A DNA stretch of 44,940 nt from Prochlorococcus sp. AG-409-F19. Lineage in GTDB: Bacteria > Cyanobacteriota > Cyanobacteriia > PCC-6307 > Cyanobiaceae. Made by a program: the position numbers and the translations under genes. The notes below the pieces were generated by a model. It searched no databases and was not told the origin of the DNA. It worked only from the letters and a program-made list of their open reading frames with translations. Positions 10,490 through 44,940 of this stretch are shown here, piece by piece (position 1 is the first letter of the stretch; every line of letters begins with the position of its first letter). Location of the stretch: the NCBI GenBank assembly GCA_003215795.1, contig QCJV01000007.1:1-44940 (forward strand), written 5' to 3'.

Positions 10490-11860
10490 TCAACTTATAA
10501 GCTTATTAATAAATGAGATGTCTACTTTATATGGAGGATACCTGAAATTTATGTCTAGCCAAAATGGCCTCTTTACAACAGATTTTAAATGTGAAAATGC
10601 TTCAAAACCTGCCTTGCCATGATAGCTACCTGTTCCACTTAGCCCCACTCCTCCAAAAGGCAGTTCTGGTATTCCTGCTTGAATAATCACATCATTGAAG
10701 CACACACCTCCAGAACTGGTCGAATCCAATACTTTTTGTTGATCCTCTTTGTCACCCCCAAACATATAAATAGCAAGAGGCTTGGCTTCTTTCTTGATCA
10801 TATCTAACCCTGATTTAAGATTTTTGATAGTTAAAATAGGTAGGACAGGGCCGAAAATTTCTTCTGATATTAGTGGATCATTTATATTGTCTATTTTTAT
10901 TAATGTAGGACAAATTTTTTGACCTGAATAATTTATAGAACCACCAAATATTATTTTATTTTCATCACGGGCCTTTTTAATTAAGTTAACAACCTTTTCA
11001 AACTGCCTGATATTTACTTTGGCTAGATCTGCTGACTCTTCAGGAATTTCGCCATAGGAATTTTTTATAGTTGACTTAAGTTTAGAAATCAAGTTATCAT
11101 TCAATTCTTCCTGTACTAGAAGATGGTTAGGTGCTAAACAAGTTTGACCAGAGTTTAAACCCTTTCCCCATACAATTCTTTTAGCGGTAATATCTAAATT
11201 TGCCCCTTTAATTACTAAGGCAGGATTTTTTCCACCAAGTTCAAGGGTTACAGGTGTTAAATAACTTGCTGCAGATCTCATAACCTTTTTTGCAATTTTG
11301 CTACCACCTGTAAAAAAAATATGATCAAATTGATTTTCTAAAAGGCTTGCTGCAAAATCTGAGTCTCCCTGCCAAACTTGGACAATGTCTTTTGGAAAGA
11401 AATTTTGAATAAGGGTTGCTATTAATTCTGAGGTGAATGGGGCAAACTCTGAAGGCTTAAGAATAGCTGTATTGCCAGCTGCCAGTGCAGATATCAAAGG
11501 CTGTAAGGTCAGCATAAAAGGGTAATTCCATGGTCCAATGATCAAAACGCAGCCTAAAGGTTCTGGTTCAACAGTCGCTGTTCCTGGCTGAAGCCATAAT
11601 GGAACTTTTACTTTCCTTGGGTGCATCCAGTTTCTAAGATTATTATTGGCCACCTTTAGCTCTTGCTTTAAAGCAAGAATCTCAAAGAAGGCTTCTGTCG
11701 CAGGTTTTTGCAGGTCCTCAGCTAATGCTTTTATTATTTGAGCTTCATTTTTTTCTAGAAGGTGTTTTATTCGACTTAGTTGAATTCTGCGCCAAGCTTC
11801 AGATCTTGTGTAGCCTTCAAGAACCGTGTTTCGTAGATCGTCGATTGTAAATTCGTCCAA
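10490..11860 (-). CDS. Aldehyde dehydrogenase (class 3 / fatty-aldehyde type)
   Basis: 456 residues. NAD(P)-dependent oxidation of aldehydes to acids. Visible active-site elements are the oxyanion Asn in PWNY (N112), FTGG of the cofactor site (about 183-186), the general base E207 in LELGG, and the nucleophile C241 in NSGQTCLAPN. The short N-terminus and the C-terminal tail resemble the class 3 fatty-aldehyde dehydrogenases that in cyanobacteria clear aldehydes made from acyl-ACP. The substrate is inferred only. The start codon is ATG; the downstream gene on this strand is the LysM protein about 75 bases away. Confidence 0.92.
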   Translation of the reverse strand: MDEFTIDDLRNTVLEGYTRSEAWRRIQLSRIKHLLEKNEAQIIKALAEDLQKPATEAFFEILALKQELKVANNNLRNWMHPRKVKVPLWLQPGTATVEPEPLGCVLIIGPWNYPFMLTLQPLISALAAGNTAILKPSEFAPFTSELIATLIQNFFPKDIVQVWQGDSDFAASLLENQFDHIFFTGGSKIAKKVMRSAASYLTPVTLELGGKNPALVIKGANLDITAKRIVWGKGLNSGQTCLAPNHLLVQEELNDNLISKLKSTIKNSYGEIPEESADLAKVNIRQFEKVVNLIKKARDENKIIFGGSINYSGQKICPTLIKIDNINDPLISEEIFGPVLPILTIKNLKSGLDMIKKEAKPLAIYMFGGDKEDQQKVLDSTSSGGVCFNDVIIQAGIPELPFGGVGLSGTGSYHGKAGFEAFSHLKSVVKRPFWLDINFRYPPYKVDISFINKLIS

Positions 11861-11905
11861 TTACCAAACTCCAGGAAAACAAGACTCTAGTTGCCGATAG
11901 GTTAA

Positions 11906-12082
11906 TTAGCGCCTACGAATTCTGCTTCTTTGTTGAAATTTTCTTTTGTATTTTTCTATAGGGGTTTCATGATGGCGAAGACGTTTAAGCTCCCCAAAAA
12001 TCCCAGCTTTAGATACTTGACGTTTAAAACGTCTAAGAGCTGATTCAATCCCCTCGCTCTCCCCAACAGTTACTTGCGTCAA
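11906..12082 (-). CDS. rpsU: 30S ribosomal protein S21
   Basis: 58 residues, translated by eye: it begins [20 protein letters not shown] after a TTG start and ends in QQRSRIRRR. This is the S21 signature, including the basic C-terminus. A ribosome-binding site AAGGA lies eight bases upstream of the TTG (minus strand). The alternative of an upstream ATG is not available in this frame. S21 sits near the mRNA exit on the 30S platform and contributes to initiation. It is located 45 bases upstream of the aldehyde dehydrogenase start. Confidence 0.95.
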
Positions 12083-12153
12083 AGGAAATCCTTATTTCAA
12101 GAGTCCTATTGTACCAGTGCAGGTCAGGTTAAGTGGAGTTCTAAAAGGTTTTT

Positions 12154-12543
12154 CTAAGTTACTTGTGAAAAAATCAACCCATCTTCTCGATTAAAAACTG
12201 CACTCCAAATTCCATTGCAAATACTTTGAAGTTCAGCCATAAGTTTTTCATTATCACCTGACTTGATCCATCTTGATTTAATTAACGGGATTTTTTCTTG
12301 CATTAATTCCATCGGTAACTGAATTAATAGTAGACTTTTATCTCCATTGATTCTTCGTATCCACCCAGATTCGCTTTTTTGAAAAACCCTGAGGAGTAAC
12401 TCTGAAGCAAGGGCTTCTCCAGTAACTCCTGGGTCGTTTTTTGTATCAATAAATTTGTTAATTGATTTTCCACCTAATGGCATGAACCTTTTACCTTCTT
12501 GCTCAATTAAGGCGAGAGCAATAAGATATAGATGCTCGTTCAT
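12154..12543 (-). CDS. Conserved cyanobacterial protein of unknown function
   Basis: 129 residues, ATG start. Soluble, no signal peptide or membrane segment. The N-terminal third (MNEHLYLIALALIEQEGKRF) is helical. The middle holds RIKxDKS-like basic residues and LLIQLPMELMQEKIPLIKSRW. I do not recognise a family. It is upstream of rpsU on the same strand with a 71-base gap. The position between rpsU and the HI0933-type flavoprotein gives no functional clue. Confidence 0.75.
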   Translation of the reverse strand: MNEHLYLIALALIEQEGKRFMPLGGKSINKFIDTKNDPGVTGEALASELLLRVFQKSESGWIRRINGDKSLLLIQLPMELMQEKIPLIKSRWIKSGDNEKLMAELQSICNGIWSAVFNREDGLIFSQVT

Positions 12544-12678
12544 CTGAAATCTTTTTTAAAACAAGTTCAAGTAGAACAATACTTTGAATTAATATTTTAA
12601 AACTGCTTAAATTAATAATTGATATACTTTACTTCTTTATATTAAGTTACCTTTTTATTTAATCTTGCTATTGAGGAA

Positions 12679-13917
12679 TTAATTGTTGCTTCGAGAAATT
12701 GCCCTTCCTGCGATCCAGCCACTTGTCCAGCAGTGTTGGAAGTTAAATCCACCAGTTACACCATCAACATTCAAGACTTCCCCTGCAAAATAAAGCCCTT
12801 TACAAATAAGGCTTTCCATAGATTTCAAGTCTATTTCATTTAGATTTATGCCCCCAGCTGTTACAAACTCCTCTCCAAAAGGACCTTTACCTATTATTAA
12901 TTGCTGGTTTTTAGTTAAGTATTTGCATGCTAAATCTCTCTTCAAATTCGAAAAGTTTGACCACTTCAGATTTTTTTCTATATTGAGCTTTTCTAGAAAA
13001 GCAAACCACAATCTTCTAGGAAATATATCATTAAAAGGATAGTATTTTTTTATGCTATAAGTTGGAAAACTTGATCTGTATGATTCTAGGAGTTTTTTGA
13101 CTTCGTTGAAATCTTTATTAACCCAGTTAATAGATAGATTAGAATTGTATTTGTCTAAGCTTAGATCTCGAGCAGCAAAGGCAGATAACTTTAGTGTAGC
13201 AGGACCACTTAATCCCCAATGTGTAATTAAAATCCTTCCAAATTGTTCAAATTGTTTGCCATTAGCAATTAATTTTAACCTAACCTTGTCAACTGAAATA
13301 CCAGAACAGGATGTGAGCCATTTAGCATTAAGCTTAAAAGTGAATAAAGATGGAACTGTATTGATTAATTGATGCCCAAGGTCATTTGCAATTTTTTTTC
13401 CACTAGGACGACCACCTGTAGCGATTAGAACTCGCTTAGCAAAAAAAAACTGCTTGTTTTGACACTCTAATTGAAAAATCTTATTGCTAAGCTTTTTTAC
13501 AGTGTTAACTTTTACTCCTGTTAGACATTTAATCCCTGAAGCTTTAGAAGCCTTGTGGAGACAATGGATGACTTCAGTTGAAGAATTTGATTTAGGGAAA
13601 ATGCGTCCATCATCTTCGATCTTTAATTCTAACCCTCTTTTCTCAAACCAATCAATTGCATCTCCAGTAGAGAATCGACTAAAAGCACCTAATAAAGCTT
13701 TCTCCCCTCGAGGGTAGTTTGTCGCCAACTCTCGCGGATCCCAGCATGCATTCGTAACATTGCATCTTCCACCACCACTAATACGTACCTTTTCAAGTGT
13801 TTTAGATGTTTCTTCTAGAACAGCAATTGAAGAAGCTCTTTTTTCAGCTGCGGTAATTGCAGCCATAAAACCTGAGGCTCCACCACCAACTACGATTAAA
13901 TCAAATGTTGCTTCCAA
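12679..13917 (-). CDS. NAD(P)/FAD-dependent oxidoreductase, HI0933/YhiN family
   Basis: 412 residues. The Rossmann motif VVGGGASGFMAAI (about 9-21) binds FAD. GGGRCNVTN near residue 50 and a C-terminal GGINLNEIDLKSMES and GLYFAGEVLNVDGVTGGFN are family signatures. The final TSGWIAGRA closes the FAD site. The biochemical substrate of this widespread family is not established with certainty. The gene stands alone. The 283 bases beyond its start (13918-14200), up to the next gene, show no reading frame of note and must hold two divergent promoters. Confidence 0.92.
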   Translation of the reverse strand: MEATFDLIVVGGGASGFMAAITAAEKRASSIAVLEETSKTLEKVRISGGGRCNVTNACWDPRELATNYPRGEKALLGAFSRFSTGDAIDWFEKRGLELKIEDDGRIFPKSNSSTEVIHCLHKASKASGIKCLTGVKVNTVKKLSNKIFQLECQNKQFFFAKRVLIATGGRPSGKKIANDLGHQLINTVPSLFTFKLNAKWLTSCSGISVDKVRLKLIANGKQFEQFGRILITHWGLSGPATLKLSAFAARDLSLDKYNSNLSINWVNKDFNEVKKLLESYRSSFPTYSIKKYYPFNDIFPRRLWFAFLEKLNIEKNLKWSNFSNLKRDLACKYLTKNQQLIIGKGPFGEEFVTAGGINLNEIDLKSMESLICKGLYFAGEVLNVDGVTGGFNFQHCWTSGWIAGRAISRSNN

Positions 13918-40544: not shown

Positions 40545-40825
40545 ACAAAACTTCTAGAAGCGATAAGAATTAGTCATTGGAAAAGAAATTTCTTATTTTA
40601 ATTTTTGGGATATGGGCTTTGACATTGCAGGGAGAATCAACCAAGCGGGTGCTAAAAAAGGCTTAGCACATGCAATTTGGATCCCAGCGTCAGGATCAAG
40701 AGATGCATAAAACTCGCCAAAAGTCTTTATGGCAATTTGATCATCAATTTATTTTGTTTGCTTCAAAATCACCATTTGTCTTATTGAAAATGACAAAAGG
40801 CACTTAACAGGAGTAGAAAAGATAA
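40545..40825. other. Intergenic stretch between lipB and the small-RNA genes
   Basis: No confident gene. A 32-codon plus frame at 40612-40710 (MGFDIAGRINQAGAKKGLAH and 12 more) has no recognisable ribosome-binding site. A weak hairpin (TTTGTC 40775-40780 with GACAAA 40792-40797) is present. The promoter of the first small RNA must lie near the right end: TTGAAA (40784-40789) is a possible -35, but no good -10 is spaced from it. Confidence 0.4.
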
Positions 40826-40882
40826 GGACACTCCTCACATAATTGTCCAATAGAGCGCTGCTAGTTAAGGGCGCTCTTTTTC
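40826..40882 (+). ncRNA. Yfr10-like small RNA, copy 1
   Basis: GGAC (40826-40829) pairs with GTCC (40844-40847), presenting ACTCCTCACATAATT in the loop. ACTCCTCACA (40830-40839) is the conserved Yfr1/Yfr10 motif of picocyanobacteria. It is followed by a Rho-independent terminator: AGAGCGC (40852-40858) pairs with GCGCTCT (40871-40877), then a T run. It differs from Yfr1, where the motif is single-stranded between two hairpins and the gene sits between guaB and trxA. The 5' end is inferred from the stem. Confidence 0.75.
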
Positions 40883-40980
40883 TTGTCTGATTTTTTCAAG
40901 ACCTACAACTGGCACATGTGACAGTTTTGAGTGTTTTTAGATGATTTCTCGCGCTTTTAAAGAATATGTGGCATATTTCC

Positions 40981-41072
40981 GTTGTGAGGAGTTGAGATCC
41001 TCCAGCAGTGGAAACTAGGAAACACTTGCTTAAGATCTCCAAAAGGACCTGTCTTCGGGCAGGTTTTTTTGT
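40981..41072 (+). ncRNA. Yfr2-family (CyR1) small RNA
   Basis: An 5' stem GAGGA/TCCTC (40986-40990, 40998-41002) is followed by a second hairpin whose loop contains GGAAACTAGGAAACA, the Yfr2/CyR1 signature with two GGAAAC repeats. A UUCG-capped terminator follows: ACCTGTC-TTCG-GGCAGGT (41047-41064) then seven or more T. A possible -10 (CATATT, 40972-40977) lies upstream. The 5' part contains TGTGAGGAGT (40983-40992), the exact reverse complement of the motif in the two flanking RNAs. Confidence 0.85.
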
Positions 41073-41114
41073 GTCTTGATGAGAAATGTCTCAATAGAAA
41101 TCATCCTCAATCGC

Positions 41115-41143
41115 TTGACCAATAAAAAACCGAGTAGTAGTAT
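41115..41143 (+). promoter_or_regulatory. Promoter of Yfr10-like copy 2
   Basis: TTGACC (41115-41120) and TAGTAT (41138-41143) are 17 bases apart, close to the sigma-70 consensus. They place transcription start about seven bases later, at the first base of the ATTAGG stem. This supports the neighbouring RNA as an independent gene. Confidence 0.65.
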
Positions 41144-41149
41144 ATTTGT

Positions 41150-41212
41150 ATTAGGGCACTCCTCACATAATTAGTCCTAATTGATAAGGCACCTGTGAGC
41201 ATGGTGCTTTTT
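41150..41212 (+). ncRNA. Yfr10-like small RNA, copy 2
   Basis: ATTAGG (41150-41155) pairs with CCTAAT (41176-41181), placing ACTCCTCACATAATTAG in the loop; the motif ACTCCTCACA is at 41158-41167. A terminator follows: AAGGCACC (41186-41193) with GGTGCTT (41203-41209) and a T run. The terminator loop holds TGTGAG, complementary to CTCACA of the motif. Motif and flanks (CACTCCTCACATAATT) match copy 1 exactly over 16 bases; stems and terminators differ. Confidence 0.75.
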
Positions 41213-41237
41213 CATGTCCTGAATTATTAGCAGACGA

Positions 41238-41513
41238 ATGGTTGATCCAGTCAGGAGAGCAGTCCCTACCCCATCAGGATGGTTAATTAATCCAGAAAAG
41301 AAGTTGGTGTTATTTTTCATTAGAGATCCAAAGTCCCTCATGCGGATGCCGAAAGTGATAACTCAACTTTGGTATGCCACTGATGAAGGTATTCCCACAA
41401 AAATAAAGAACACTCGAACAATTGATTTAGAGGAAGCAAATGAAACTTGGTTTGAATTGTTGAGCAATGGTTGGGAGTTGGTAGAGCATCAAATTAATGA
41501 CGAGGTTGCATAG
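41238..41513 (+). CDS. DUF1651 family protein
   Basis: 91 residues, ATG start. The pattern GWLINPEKKLVLFFIRDP, LWYATDEGIP and a C-terminal ETWFELLSNGWELVE matches DUF1651, small proteins restricted to Prochlorococcus and marine Synechococcus, often in variable regions. No known function. It lies 25 bases after the second small-RNA terminator and its stop is five bases from the convergent integrase ruin. Confidence 0.8.
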   Translation: MVDPVRRAVPTPSGWLINPEKKLVLFFIRDPKSLMRMPKVITQLWYATDEGIPTKIKNTRTIDLEEANETWFELLSNGWELVEHQINDEVA

Positions 41514-41517
41514 ACAA

Positions 41518-42335
41518 TCACTCATTTATCATCATGCCTTCTTCGGCATCCTTATGGGAACCTAGTTCGTCGATGTTGAGAATATTGGATAAGCGGTAAT
41601 AGGTGAGTTCTATTTCTGCCTGAGAGTTGCCCACGTTATCGGCAATTACTCTTGTCCTATACCCCTTCAGGAGGGCGTGAGTAACGTGAGCAGCACGTAA
41701 AGGATGCAATGTAAATCTCTTGCCGAACTCACACTGGGGAAGGATCTCATTCATCCATCCGTTGATGTGTTCTGTGTGATAAACAGTCCTGCCATCAATG
41801 AATGGGTTCATCAAAAGAAAGTCATCCTTACCTGCTGAGTCCAGCATTGGAAGTTCATGCTTCTTAGTCCATTTAGGACGCTTACCTTCTCCACTCAAAA
41901 CCATCTCATTGTGGATTTTGATTTGCTCATTGCGAAGTTTGATTCCTTTATTCAGGTGCGATTTAACCTTCCGAAGAGTATTTCCATTCATGATTAAAGT
42001 TCTTCTTCCAGTTTTTGTAGAAGGAGAAATGGAGGTGACTCCCTTTACTTTCCCATCAGGTCTTTTTTGTACTTCAGTATCCCCAAGAAGTATTAGACTA
42101 CTTTCATGAACACGACAACCACTTTGATATTAAAATAAGACCCAGTTAATGAACCATATTTTTTCCCACTGATCAATTTCATCTACACAGTTCTGGTGTC
42201 AGTGGTCTCTAAAGAAACATTTGTGTATCTTCTGCCTTGTCTTTTGATTCTTAAATAGAAATATTCTCAATCTGCATAAGCAACAAGATCTGCCTGTCCA
42301 TTCAGTGTTGGTTCTTTGCTGTGGATTTTTAGCAT
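41518..42335 (-). pseudogene. Decayed tyrosine recombinase (phage/element integrase)
   Basis: On the minus strand an ATG at 42335-42333 opens KIHSKEPTLNGQADLVAYAD, then TGA (42267-42269), then EYFYLRIKRQGRRYTNVSLE and TTDTRTV, TAG (42183-42185). After a frameshift and a loss of part of the core-binding region, the catalytic domain reads VDEIDQWEKIWFINWVLF, TAA (42130-42132), YQSGCRVHESSLILLGDTEV and on without interruption to 41518. Catalytic Arg (GCRVHE), His-x-x-Arg (HPLRAAH) and Tyr (TYYRLS) remain. The intact 3' end is open from ATG 41991 for 157 codons, but the first catalytic Arg lies upstream of it. It is therefore non-functional, probably the trace of a tycheposon, prophage or similar element. 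Confidence 0.85.
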
Positions 42336-42360
42336 AAATGAAAAGAATTGGGGTCAGGAC

Positions 42361-42448
42361 TGTCCAAGGCCTTGTCCAACCGCTATCAGGCGACCTAGTG
42401 ATGCCAAAGTCCAATGGATTTTGTTTTCTATGTCCAATACGATGTCCA
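42361..42448. repeat. Five TGTCCA-type repeats upstream of the integrase ruin
   Basis: TGTCCA occurs at 42361, 42373, 42431 and 42443, with AGTCCA at 42408. Start-to-start spacings are 12, 35, 23 and 12 bases. The outer pairs mirror each other. They lie just upstream of the pseudogene start and could be old binding sites of the recombinase or its partner; chance cannot be excluded. Confidence 0.4.
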
Positions 42449-42454
42449 GCATTA

Positions 42455-42500
42455 AAGGCACTGCTATCACATGGTCATGGCTATGTGATAGCAGTGCCTT
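42455..42500. repeat. Perfect 18-bp inverted repeat
   Basis: AAGGCACTGCTATCACAT (42455-42472) and its exact reverse complement (42483-42500) flank a 10-base spacer. No T run follows on the plus strand and only TTTAA on the minus strand, so it is not a typical terminator. It lies between the integrase ruin and ylqD. Possibilities are a recombination site, a structured RNA, or a terminator of ylqD. Confidence 0.85.
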
Positions 42501-42560
42501 CTCACTAAAGTCTTTCCCTAATCTTAACGACCAATGGAGCAAAAAATCAAAAACAAAAAA

Positions 42561-43004
42561 TTAGTCTTGATTAATAGCCTCCACAACGCCATCTCTAACA
42601 AGTAATGAAAGTTGCATCTTGCTGACTAGATTATCCCCAACTTTAAGGTCACAAAAGCTTTCAATTTGACCCTGTTCAACAATCTGCTCCATCTCTAATT
42701 CCCTAACTTGCGCTTGCTGTTGCAGCAAGTTCCTTTTCTGCTCTTCTAATTCAGAACGCTTCGCAGCAACCTGTTGTTGTACTTGTGCAACTTGTTCTTG
42801 AATTCTTGGATCTAAAGGATTTGCACTTTGTGTCCTTAAACCATCAACAACCTGCTGTCCCTCTTTCTCTAATTGAGCTAATTGCTCATCGCTTGTTGCG
42901 ATAGCACTACTTATTTCTCTTTCAGCTTCTTCTTTCCAAGAAGGTGTAACAACTGCACGAACTGTGATGGAACGCTTAATTGAAATGGAGCTTTCTACGG
43001 TCAT
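42561..43004 (-). CDS. YlqD-family coiled-coil protein
   Basis: 147 residues, ATG start. A beta-rich N-terminus (SISIKRSITVRAVVTPSWKE), a long charged coiled coil (about 25-110, many Q, E and A), and a C-terminal beta segment (CDLKVGDNLVSKMQLSLLVR) give the YlqD architecture. The function is not established. It is downstream of the acyl-CoA/ACP synthetase on the same strand, 67 bases away. Confidence 0.85.
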   Translation of the reverse strand: MTVESSISIKRSITVRAVVTPSWKEEAEREISSAIATSDEQLAQLEKEGQQVVDGLRTQSANPLDPRIQEQVAQVQQQVAAKRSELEEQKRNLLQQQAQVRELEMEQIVEQGQIESFCDLKVGDNLVSKMQLSLLVRDGVVEAINQD

Positions 43005-43071
43005 TTTAAAACAGCTTATGCAGCAAGGTTCTCAGTGAATGTGTAATAGGTCAATGAAATTCCAAGGAAAA

Positions 43072-44940
43072 TTATCGCCCAAAAATATCTTCTATGGCTT
43101 TTTGGTCTCGTGCAACAATAATACTCCTTTTTTGTTTAAGAGTCTGCGTCAACAAACCATTCTCTATTGAGAATGGTTTAACTAAAGCCACTCCAACTAC
43201 TCTTTCATTTGAACGAGAACCTCTACGTCGAGCAAGTATTTCATTGATTTCTCTGCGTAAAAGCATCCTCAATTGACCATCTCCCCAACCACCCCCCAAA
43301 GCCTCATCTAAAAAAAGATTTCTATTTCCAGCCCAAGCCAAAACATTTTCTATGTTAGGGACCAATAACACGCCAAGTTGTCTTTCATCTTGACCAACCA
43401 CCATCGCCTGCTCAACAAGCGAACTGCTTAGCAATTCTTCTTCTAATGGGGCAGGCTCAATGTTCTCTCCAGTACTTAAAACGATAGTATCCTTTGCTCG
43501 TCCTGTGAGAACAATAGAGCCATCCTCAAGCAACATACCAATGTCCCCTGTATCAAACCATCCATTAGAGTCGAAAACTTTGGCAGTTTCATTTGGCTTC
43601 CTTAAATATCCATTCATAACCTGAGGTCCTCTAACCAAAACTCTCCCTTTTTCCAAAAAATTCATAGTTCTACCATCTTCAAGATCAACAATCCGAAATT
43701 CTGTTTCAGGCAAAGGCAAACCTGAGCTCCCGCGAATATTGCGCCAAGTCCTTCTACAACTCAAAACAGGGCTTGTCTCCGTAAGACCATAGCCAACCAA
43801 CAATTCCACGCCTAAAGCCTCAAAAAACGCATCAACATGCGGGGCTATTGCACCCCCACCATTGATAGGAAAAATTAATTTCCCACCAGAAAGTTGTTCA
43901 AGAACTTTTGGCCATAGCACAACAGATGCAAGCCTATGCATTGGCCAACGAATTATCACCTCTGCAAAAGCTAAAAATCTTATATGCTTTTTCACTTTTC
44001 TCAAAAGAAGATTTTTAGATTTCCTTAGTGCGAGCTTGAAAGCACGACTATTACTAAGAGCAGCTTTAAGAATAATTTGCCGTGAATTAGGCATTTTAAT
44101 CAATGCATCATCAAATCCAGTCTTTATTCCCTCCCAAAGTCTGGGGACAGTTGCCATCACAACGGGTTTAACTGTCTTTAAATCATCTCTTAGATGCTTA
44201 ATAGTGCTGTAATTTTGCGTACACCCACAGGAGAAAAAGTAATACTCTGCACTTCTTTCATATGAATGCCAAATCGGTAAAACACTTAATAACGCTGCCC
44301 CTGGAGTTGGTCTGGCAATACAGGCTAATGATCTCATTTGATGAAGAAGGTTTTTATGAGTAAGTGGGACCCCTTTTGGTCGACCTGTAGTACCTGAGGT
44401 ATAGAGAATAGTCGCTACAGAAGAGTTCGAAGAATGAGCAGCTAAATCATTAATTACATCTTTCAAAACTTCGCCTTCCCCTCCTCTGTCAAGGAAATCT
44501 TCCCATCCAATCAGGCCAGTCAATGGTGCACCCTCAAGCTGCAAGACAAACTTAAATCGCTGCTTTTCTTCCTCACTTAAATCAAGATCATTCCATAATT
44601 TTGCAGATTGAACTATCAAAGCAGCAGATTGAGAATCACTCAAAATATATCTAAGCTCTGAGACTGGAGCAGAAGATCCTCGCACTGCATTCGATGCTCC
44701 CACGCGCATTAAGCCTTGATCTGCAATCAACCACCTTGGACTATTTTCTGAAAACAATGAAACAACATCACCACTAACAATCCCAAAAGAACGAAACGCA
44801 GCTGCCGCAATAGAAATCTTGTCTGCCAGCTCTTGATAATTGTAGTGTTCTGGACAAGCCAAGTGGGGGGCCTTCACAGCCATAATGTGGCCATAGTTTG
44901 TTTTTAACCATGGCCACATTTGATCTACTTGATTAATTTC
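43072..44940 (-). CDS. Long-chain acyl-CoA/acyl-ACP synthetase (AMP-forming), 5' end outside window
   Basis: At least 622 codons; the frame is open through the right edge (EINQVDQ before the first ATG at 44919), so the true start is likely upstream. AMP-binding enzyme: ATILYTSGTTGRPKGVPLTH is the P-loop, GYGLTETSPVLS is motif A5, and GWFDTGDIGMLLEDG contains the conserved Asp of A7. The final SIENGLLTQTLKQKRSIIVA contains the usual catalytic Lys region near TLKQKR. In cyanobacteria this family (Aas) reactivates free fatty acids released from lipids. It is transcribed into ylqD. Confidence 0.92.
   Translation of the reverse strand, partial: EINQVDQMWPWLKTNYGHIMAVKAPHLACPEHYNYQELADKISIAAAAFRSFGIVSGDVVSLFSENSPRWLIADQGLMRVGASNAVRGSSAPVSELRYILSDSQSAALIVQSAKLWNDLDLSEEEKQRFKFVLQLEGAPLTGLIGWEDFLDRGGEGEVLKDVINDLAAHSSNSSVATILYTSGTTGRPKGVPLTHKNLLHQMRSLACIARPTPGAALLSVLPIWHSYERSAEYYFFSCGCTQNYSTIKHLRDDLKTVKPVVMATVPRLWEGIKTGFDDALIKMPNSRQIILKAALSNSRAFKLALRKSKNLLLRKVKKHIRFLAFAEVIIRWPMHRLASVVLWPKVLEQLSGGKLIFPINGGGAIAPHVDAFFEALGVELLVGYGLTETSPVLSCRRTWRNIRGSSGLPLPETEFRIVDLEDGRTMNFLEKGRVLVRGPQVMNGYLRKPNETAKVFDSNGWFDTGDIGMLLEDGSIVLTGRAKDTIVLSTGENIEPAPLEEELLSSSLVEQAMVVGQDERQLGVLLVPNIENVLAWAGNRNLFLDEALGGGWGDGQLRMLLRREINEILARRRGSRSNERVVGVALVKPFSIENGLLTQTLKQKRSIIVARDQKAIEDIFGR

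Follow-up and report, generated by a model that had tools for sequence, protein, structure and literature searches.

A Yfr10-Yfr2 small RNA tandem beside a probable DUF1651 leader with a Yfr10-like motif in Prochlorococcus sp. AG-409-F19

The direct adjacency of Yfr10-type RNAs and RNAs of the Yfr2 family was described in 2008 for MED4, in which Yfr10, Yfr12 and Yfr18 are located directly adjacent to Yfr2, Yfr4 and Yfr5, pairing between the neighbors was predicted and a 270-nt Yfr10-Yfr2 precursor was reported (PMC2518516). Experiments published in 2019 demonstrated that Yfr1 and Yfr10 are enriched with Yfr2 as bait, that Yfr2 restores a Yfr1 target in E. coli and counteracts Yfr1, and that Yfr2 is protected from RNase E, with competition involving the ppa target; in high-light strains Yfr10 is encoded upstream of Yfr2 (PMC6778093). 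Yfr1 (RF01116) shares the motif ACUCCUCACA with Yfr10, but differs in that the motif is placed between two stem-loops in the vicinity of guaB/trxA (PMC6778093). Furthermore, RNAs of this network can form the beginning of an mRNA, as is the case for the 5' leaders Yfr2b and Yfr2c of Synechocystis (PMC2662882).

We analyzed a locus of Prochlorococcus sp. AG-409-F19 (G000) within a window of 44,940 nt, which is the whole stretch of DNA under analysis and belongs to an assembly of 912 kb with about 54% completeness. The locus consists of the following parts:

40822..40885, plus strand: Yfr10-type small RNA (copy 1), a hairpin with the motif in its loop followed by a terminator
40826-40829 and 40845-40848: stem of copy 1 (GGAC and GTCC), enclosing the loop ACTCCTCACA at 40830-40839
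40853-40876: terminator of copy 1 (GAGCGCT..GGCGCTC), followed by a T run
40907..40925, no strand: near-palindrome AACTGGCACATGTGACAGT, conserved in position, a candidate and likely transcription-factor site
40978..41072, plus strand: Yfr2-family (Cyano-1) small RNA according to Rfam match and fold, with the 5' motif TGTGAGGAGT at 40983-40992, a stem with GGAAAC loop and the terminator ACCTGTCTTCGGGCAGGT with a T run
41115..41143, plus strand: promoter-like TTGACC-17-TAGTAT of the third element, with hexamers largely invariant before 7/7 DUF1651 genes of one subtype
41150..41215, plus strand: third element, Yfr10-like, reinterpreted here as DUF1651 leader
41150-41157 and 41174-41181: hairpin of the third element (ATTAGGGC and GTCCTAAT), enclosing the loop ACTCCTCACA at 41158-41167, with a subsequent terminator GGCACC..GGTGC and five T
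41238..41513, plus strand: gene of a DUF1651 protein of 91 aa (PF07864, E 4.4e-24), starting about 25 nt past the terminator of the third element

A previous reading of the sequence alone had placed two copies of the motif at 40830-40839 and 41158-41167, and both positions, on the plus strand, are exact. The same is true for the 10-nt reverse complement at 40983-40992 within the Yfr2 RNA, and folding confirmed a hairpin loop as the location of both flanking motifs, which have mean unpaired probabilities of 0.89 and 1.00; a predicted terminator hairpin with a T run follows each of them. This sequence-only reading was correct and careful, and its main claim was already known: the co-location that it considered as new was published in 2008 (PMC2518516) and is present in several genera of our data set. 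In our view the locus is fairly probably a known Yfr10-Yfr2 tandem beside a DUF1651 leader which carries a Yfr10-like motif.

Cyano-1 (RF01701, the Yfr2 family) is the sole Rfam RNA above cut-off at the locus and matches 40978-41043 with 53 bits at a cut-off of 41. The RNA displays the conserved 5' motif GUGAGGAG, the GGAAAC-type loop and its own terminator as expected for this family, with no difference of note. Members of the family accumulate as RNAs of roughly 90 nt. The Yfr10 model (RF02362), applied at a relaxed threshold to 701 bases, aligned with the third element at 41150-41222 (32.3 bits, E 0.007) and with copy 1 at 40823-40890 (21.9 bits, E 1), and because both scores are below the gathering cut-off of 43 we name the flanking copies Yfr10-type and not members of RF02362. 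They resemble this family in that a 5' hairpin carries the motif in its loop and is followed by a terminator, but the stems are unrelated in sequence. If Yfr10 is understood in the motif-based sense as an RNA encoded upstream of Yfr2 (PMC6778093), only copy 1 belongs to this group, as the third element is located downstream of Yfr2. An Rfam Yfr10 match in G013:C5 was discarded as false, having a loop without the motif.

The segment 40822-41072 is a standard Yfr10-Yfr2 tandem and represents an old conserved module. A search across the family set of 400 genomes revealed that the tandem pattern recurs in 43/400 genomes in comparison to 1/400 for the reversed control, with 32 of 41 genomes in the genus g56, which is probably LLI, 8 of 14 in the genus of AG-409-F19 and a single genome in each of three further genera. 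The pattern is almost its own reverse complement, and the orientation was checked on fetched loci, where Yfr10 precedes Yfr2 on one strand in 29 of 30 cases with the motifs 135-159 nt apart. In the high-light genus, a pattern adapted to the Yfr2 motif of MED4 was found in 7 of 41 genomes, including position 346668 in G159, which is the published yfr10 position of MED4. Within our genus (14 genomes), the exact motif is located upstream and on the same strand at 14 of the 40 Yfr2 matches (12 at a distance of 144-148 nt, 2 at 101-104 nt) and in convergent orientation about 163 nt downstream at three more. The AG-409-F19 assembly itself contains six Yfr2 matches and 11 copies of the motif (three for the reversed control), and five of the seven copies outside Yfr2 genes lie at most 250 nt from a Yfr2, which has a probability of about 8e-12 by chance in this assembly. 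The stems of Yfr10 are wholly different between genera; within the genus the stem of copy 1 shows covariation, with GGAC/GTCC alternating with CGAC/GTCG, and all 10 letters of the motif are kept in 12/12 upstream copies with a type-A terminator. A decayed upstream copy at G005:C5 has lost both the terminator and the motif identity.

In comparison to the MED4 pairs Yfr10-Yfr2, Yfr12-Yfr4 and Yfr18-Yfr5 (PMC2518516; tested in PMC6778093), the tandem has the same ACUCCUCACA in a hairpin loop, the same direct neighbor, a Yfr2-family RNA whose 5' motif is complementary, and a similar spacing, but other hairpin and terminator sequences, and it occurs in a different clade without a match for Yfr1. 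In one genome of the genus, the position of a Yfr2 (556643-556707, minus strand) agrees with that of the published yfr2 of SS120 (complement 556612..556701, PMC1242208), and we therefore assign the genus to the LLII/III clade, members of which have been reported to be devoid of Yfr1 (PMC6778093). This is in line with our search with the Yfr1 model RF01116, which gave no match in 14/14 genomes of the genus. We found no mention of these low-light tandems in the open-access papers that we consulted, and we regard the extension of the tandem to LLII/III together with the DUF1651 leader as modest additions to the known picture. The spacing of the tandem is nearly fixed despite replaced Yfr10 stems and the tandem persists in a clade without Yfr1, which favors the idea that it is important to make both partners locally.

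Several related arrangements were observed in addition. At G000:C3:42302 on the minus strand, a Yfr10-type RNA stands alone, without any Yfr2 detected in its vicinity, and similar solo copies occur in G003, G004, G005, G009 and G010. A third kind of Yfr10-like hairpin in G000 (motif at C1:12420 on the minus strand, region 11200-13500) lies about 160 nt downstream of a Yfr2 with a weak score, in convergent orientation, with comparable layouts in G005:C2, G011:C6 and apparently G004:C6. G011:C15 and G011:C35 carry near-identical Yfr10-Yfr2 tandems on two contigs, reflecting either duplication or assembly redundancy. Furthermore, a near-palindrome AACTGKCACATGTGACAGT is located 68-71 nt before many Yfr2 matches in two genera, irrespective of the presence of Yfr10, and the near-palindrome at 40907-40925 may be the GntR (PMM1637) site CGRE1.

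The perfect complementarity between the motif and Yfr2 had been regarded as a special feature, but corresponds to the ordinary 5' motif of Yfr2 in this lineage: the gap-free 10-nt match results from GUGAGGAG in Yfr2 instead of GUGUGUAGGAG in MED4. Cofolding with the local Yfr2 predicted an energy gain of -12.2 kcal/mol for copy 1 and -10.3 kcal/mol for the third element, while permuted motifs reached mean values of -4.8 and -2.7, respectively, and 0/100 permutations were as good. Copy 1 pairs with Yfr2 RNAs of other loci (-11.3 to -14.2) as well as with its own, and the tandem on C12 pairs poorly with its own Yfr2 (-4.8). A special matching of neighbors in cis was rejected, since RNAs from different loci pair no less well than neighbors, which indicates that the tandem sets where and when the RNAs are made and not which partner is bound. 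It had also been proposed that most of the complement is hidden in the 5' stem of Yfr2. The fold of the full-length RNA argues against this, with a mean unpaired probability of 0.75 for the complement; the Cyano-1 consensus of Rfam leaves the motif unpaired, and the median for the motif core over the 40 Yfr2 copies of the genus is 0.69. The GAGGA/UCCUC stem is an alternative fold, which is 0.6 kcal/mol less stable at full length and is preferred if Yfr2 is folded without its terminator.

To characterize the third element we collected the DUF1651 genes of the genus by protein model and selected the RAVPTPSGWL subtype by a sequence-motif filter. The resulting set comprises seven loci only, from related genomes, and 7/7 share the promoter (TTGAC, 16-18 nt, TAGTAT), the start TTTGTATTAG, the hairpin and the terminator 20-30 nt before the start codon of DUF1651; this corresponds to the leader layout that we propose, i.e. 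a fixed promoter, a hairpin and a terminator upstream of the coding start. The motif in the loop is exact in 2/7 leaders (AG-409-F19 and G004), one letter off in 3/7 (ACTCTTCACA once, ACTCCTCACT twice), two letters off in G005:C5 and lost in G013:C11. No Yfr2 was found beside the leader of G005:C5, and at G007:C17 the contig ends at this position. An exact motif 150-180 nt downstream of Yfr2 on the same strand is restricted to G000 and G004 among the 400 genomes. The conserved leader features in 7/7 loci and the occurrence of the triple in only 2/400 genomes indicate that the triple is a tandem which lies by coincidence beside a DUF1651 leader. We saw no conserved anti-terminator pairing by eye in the DUF1651 leader; a pairing of GGCAC with GUGCU, possible by eye in G000, was rejected as it is not kept in G004.

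The sequence-only reading suggested that a regulator and its possible sponge are encoded side by side. The roles are right and have been tested for these RNA families (PMC6778093), but novelty could be upheld neither for the co-location nor for the matching. A three-gene array, in which two Yfr10 genes flank Yfr2 so that the dose of regulator and sponge is fixed and both are passed on together, could explain the exact motif on both sides of Yfr2 in this genome and in G004 as well as the near-motifs at the same positions in G002 and G012. We consider it very unlikely, as the arrangement of Yfr2 and downstream motif is confined to two genomes of the family set, the third element goes with DUF1651 and not with Yfr2, and its motif varies between close relatives whereas that of copy 1 does not. 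The third element might instead be a stand-alone Yfr10-type RNA that stands before DUF1651 by chance and is unrelated to its expression. It has its own promoter and terminator, it gives the highest Rfam Yfr10 score of the stretch, and what we call a leader could, given that it stops at a terminator, be no more than a small RNA gene adjacent to DUF1651; however, the element stays with DUF1651 at 7/7 loci, including those that lack a neighboring Yfr2, and its promoter is better conserved than its motif, which makes this explanation improbable.

The third motif may also be a relic or a chance match in an otherwise unrelated DUF1651 leader and have no pairing function, as suggested by its exact conservation in only two leaders and its loss in G013:C11. 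In addition, cofolding of the variant leaders with Yfr2 yielded -7.0 to -8.5, which is no better than the -7.2 of the motif-less G013 leader and lends no support to selection for pairing of the third element. On the other hand, G000 and G004 retain the complete 10-nt motif with the loop fully open, and 6/7 leaders retain at least 8 of the 10 letters, and we rate a relic or chance match as rather unlikely.

We therefore return to a known tandem beside a DUF1651 leader. Yfr10 and Yfr2 would be transcribed as two separately terminated small RNAs from neighboring genes and pair through ACUCCUCACA and UGUGAGGAGU. By analogy to the binding and to the counteraction of Yfr1 and Yfr10 by Yfr2 published for MED4, Yfr2 may titrate the Yfr10 motif and prevent it from reaching AGGAG-type sites in mRNAs; in turn, the 5' end of Yfr2 may be occupied by Yfr10. 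The third element (41150-41215) would be the promoter-proximal hairpin and terminator of DUF1651, outside any dedicated three-gene array. Its loop matches the motif exactly in two genomes, one of them AG-409-F19, and nearly in four more. A short terminated RNA is the probable product of the element, DUF1651 would be made by read-through, and in this genome Yfr2 could also bind the element and possibly act on DUF1651. In Synechocystis the leader is Yfr2 itself, whereas at the present locus DUF1651 would be preceded by a Yfr10-like leader.

In Synechococcus and MED4, genes of the DUF1651 family react to infection by phages (PMC5490813), which makes their leader of interest. If Yfr2 reads the leader, a phage-response gene would be directly linked to a global small-RNA network for carbon, nitrogen and light. 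That a Yfr10-like hairpin became, or always was, the DUF1651 leader and that the global Yfr2/Yfr10 network reads or sets the expression of this gene through the leader loop is a speculative extension, which we regard as quite unlikely; together with the adjacent tandem, it would amount to a compact circuit at a single locus in a lineage from which Yfr1 was lost. DUF1651 genes recur a few kb from Yfr2 loci in several genomes; one of them, with an internal TGA (G000:C12:19132-19350), is located about 1.1 kb downstream of the Yfr10-Yfr2 tandem on C12.

The neighborhood of lipB, which had been suggested as a synteny marker, is not ancestral and arises from an inversion of 40682-44940. The order lipB, acyl-CoA synthetase gene, ylqD is shared by nine named Prochlorococcus single-cell genomes and G013, and in comparison to these ten relatives the block is inverted and the synthetase gene is split, with 71 bases after lipB (40611-40681) and the rest at 43072-44919 on the minus strand. 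After the 71-base piece comes the first part of a restriction/helicase gene in reversed orientation. At its other end the block reaches the end of the contig at 44940, which leaves the synthetase gene 52 bases short of closing. We flag the junction at 40681/40682, which has a short overlap of the ATCCCA type, and the region 42497-44940. Multiple displacement amplification mainly gives rise to inverted joins that have small deletions and short overlaps (PMC1855051), and the inversion is probably an amplification chimera of the single-cell genome rather than a real inversion. The order in G013:C11 is lipB, synthetase, ylqD, integrase, DUF1651 and restriction/helicase gene, which indicates that DUF1651 and a restriction-type gene are the natural neighbors of the third element. 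A remnant of a tyrosine-recombinase-like integrase (157 aa, 41518-41991 on the minus strand), which is intact with 445 aa in G013:C11 (L085 5554-6891), adjoins the Mrr/ResIII restriction-helicase gene and resembles a degraded mobile or defence island beside ylqD.
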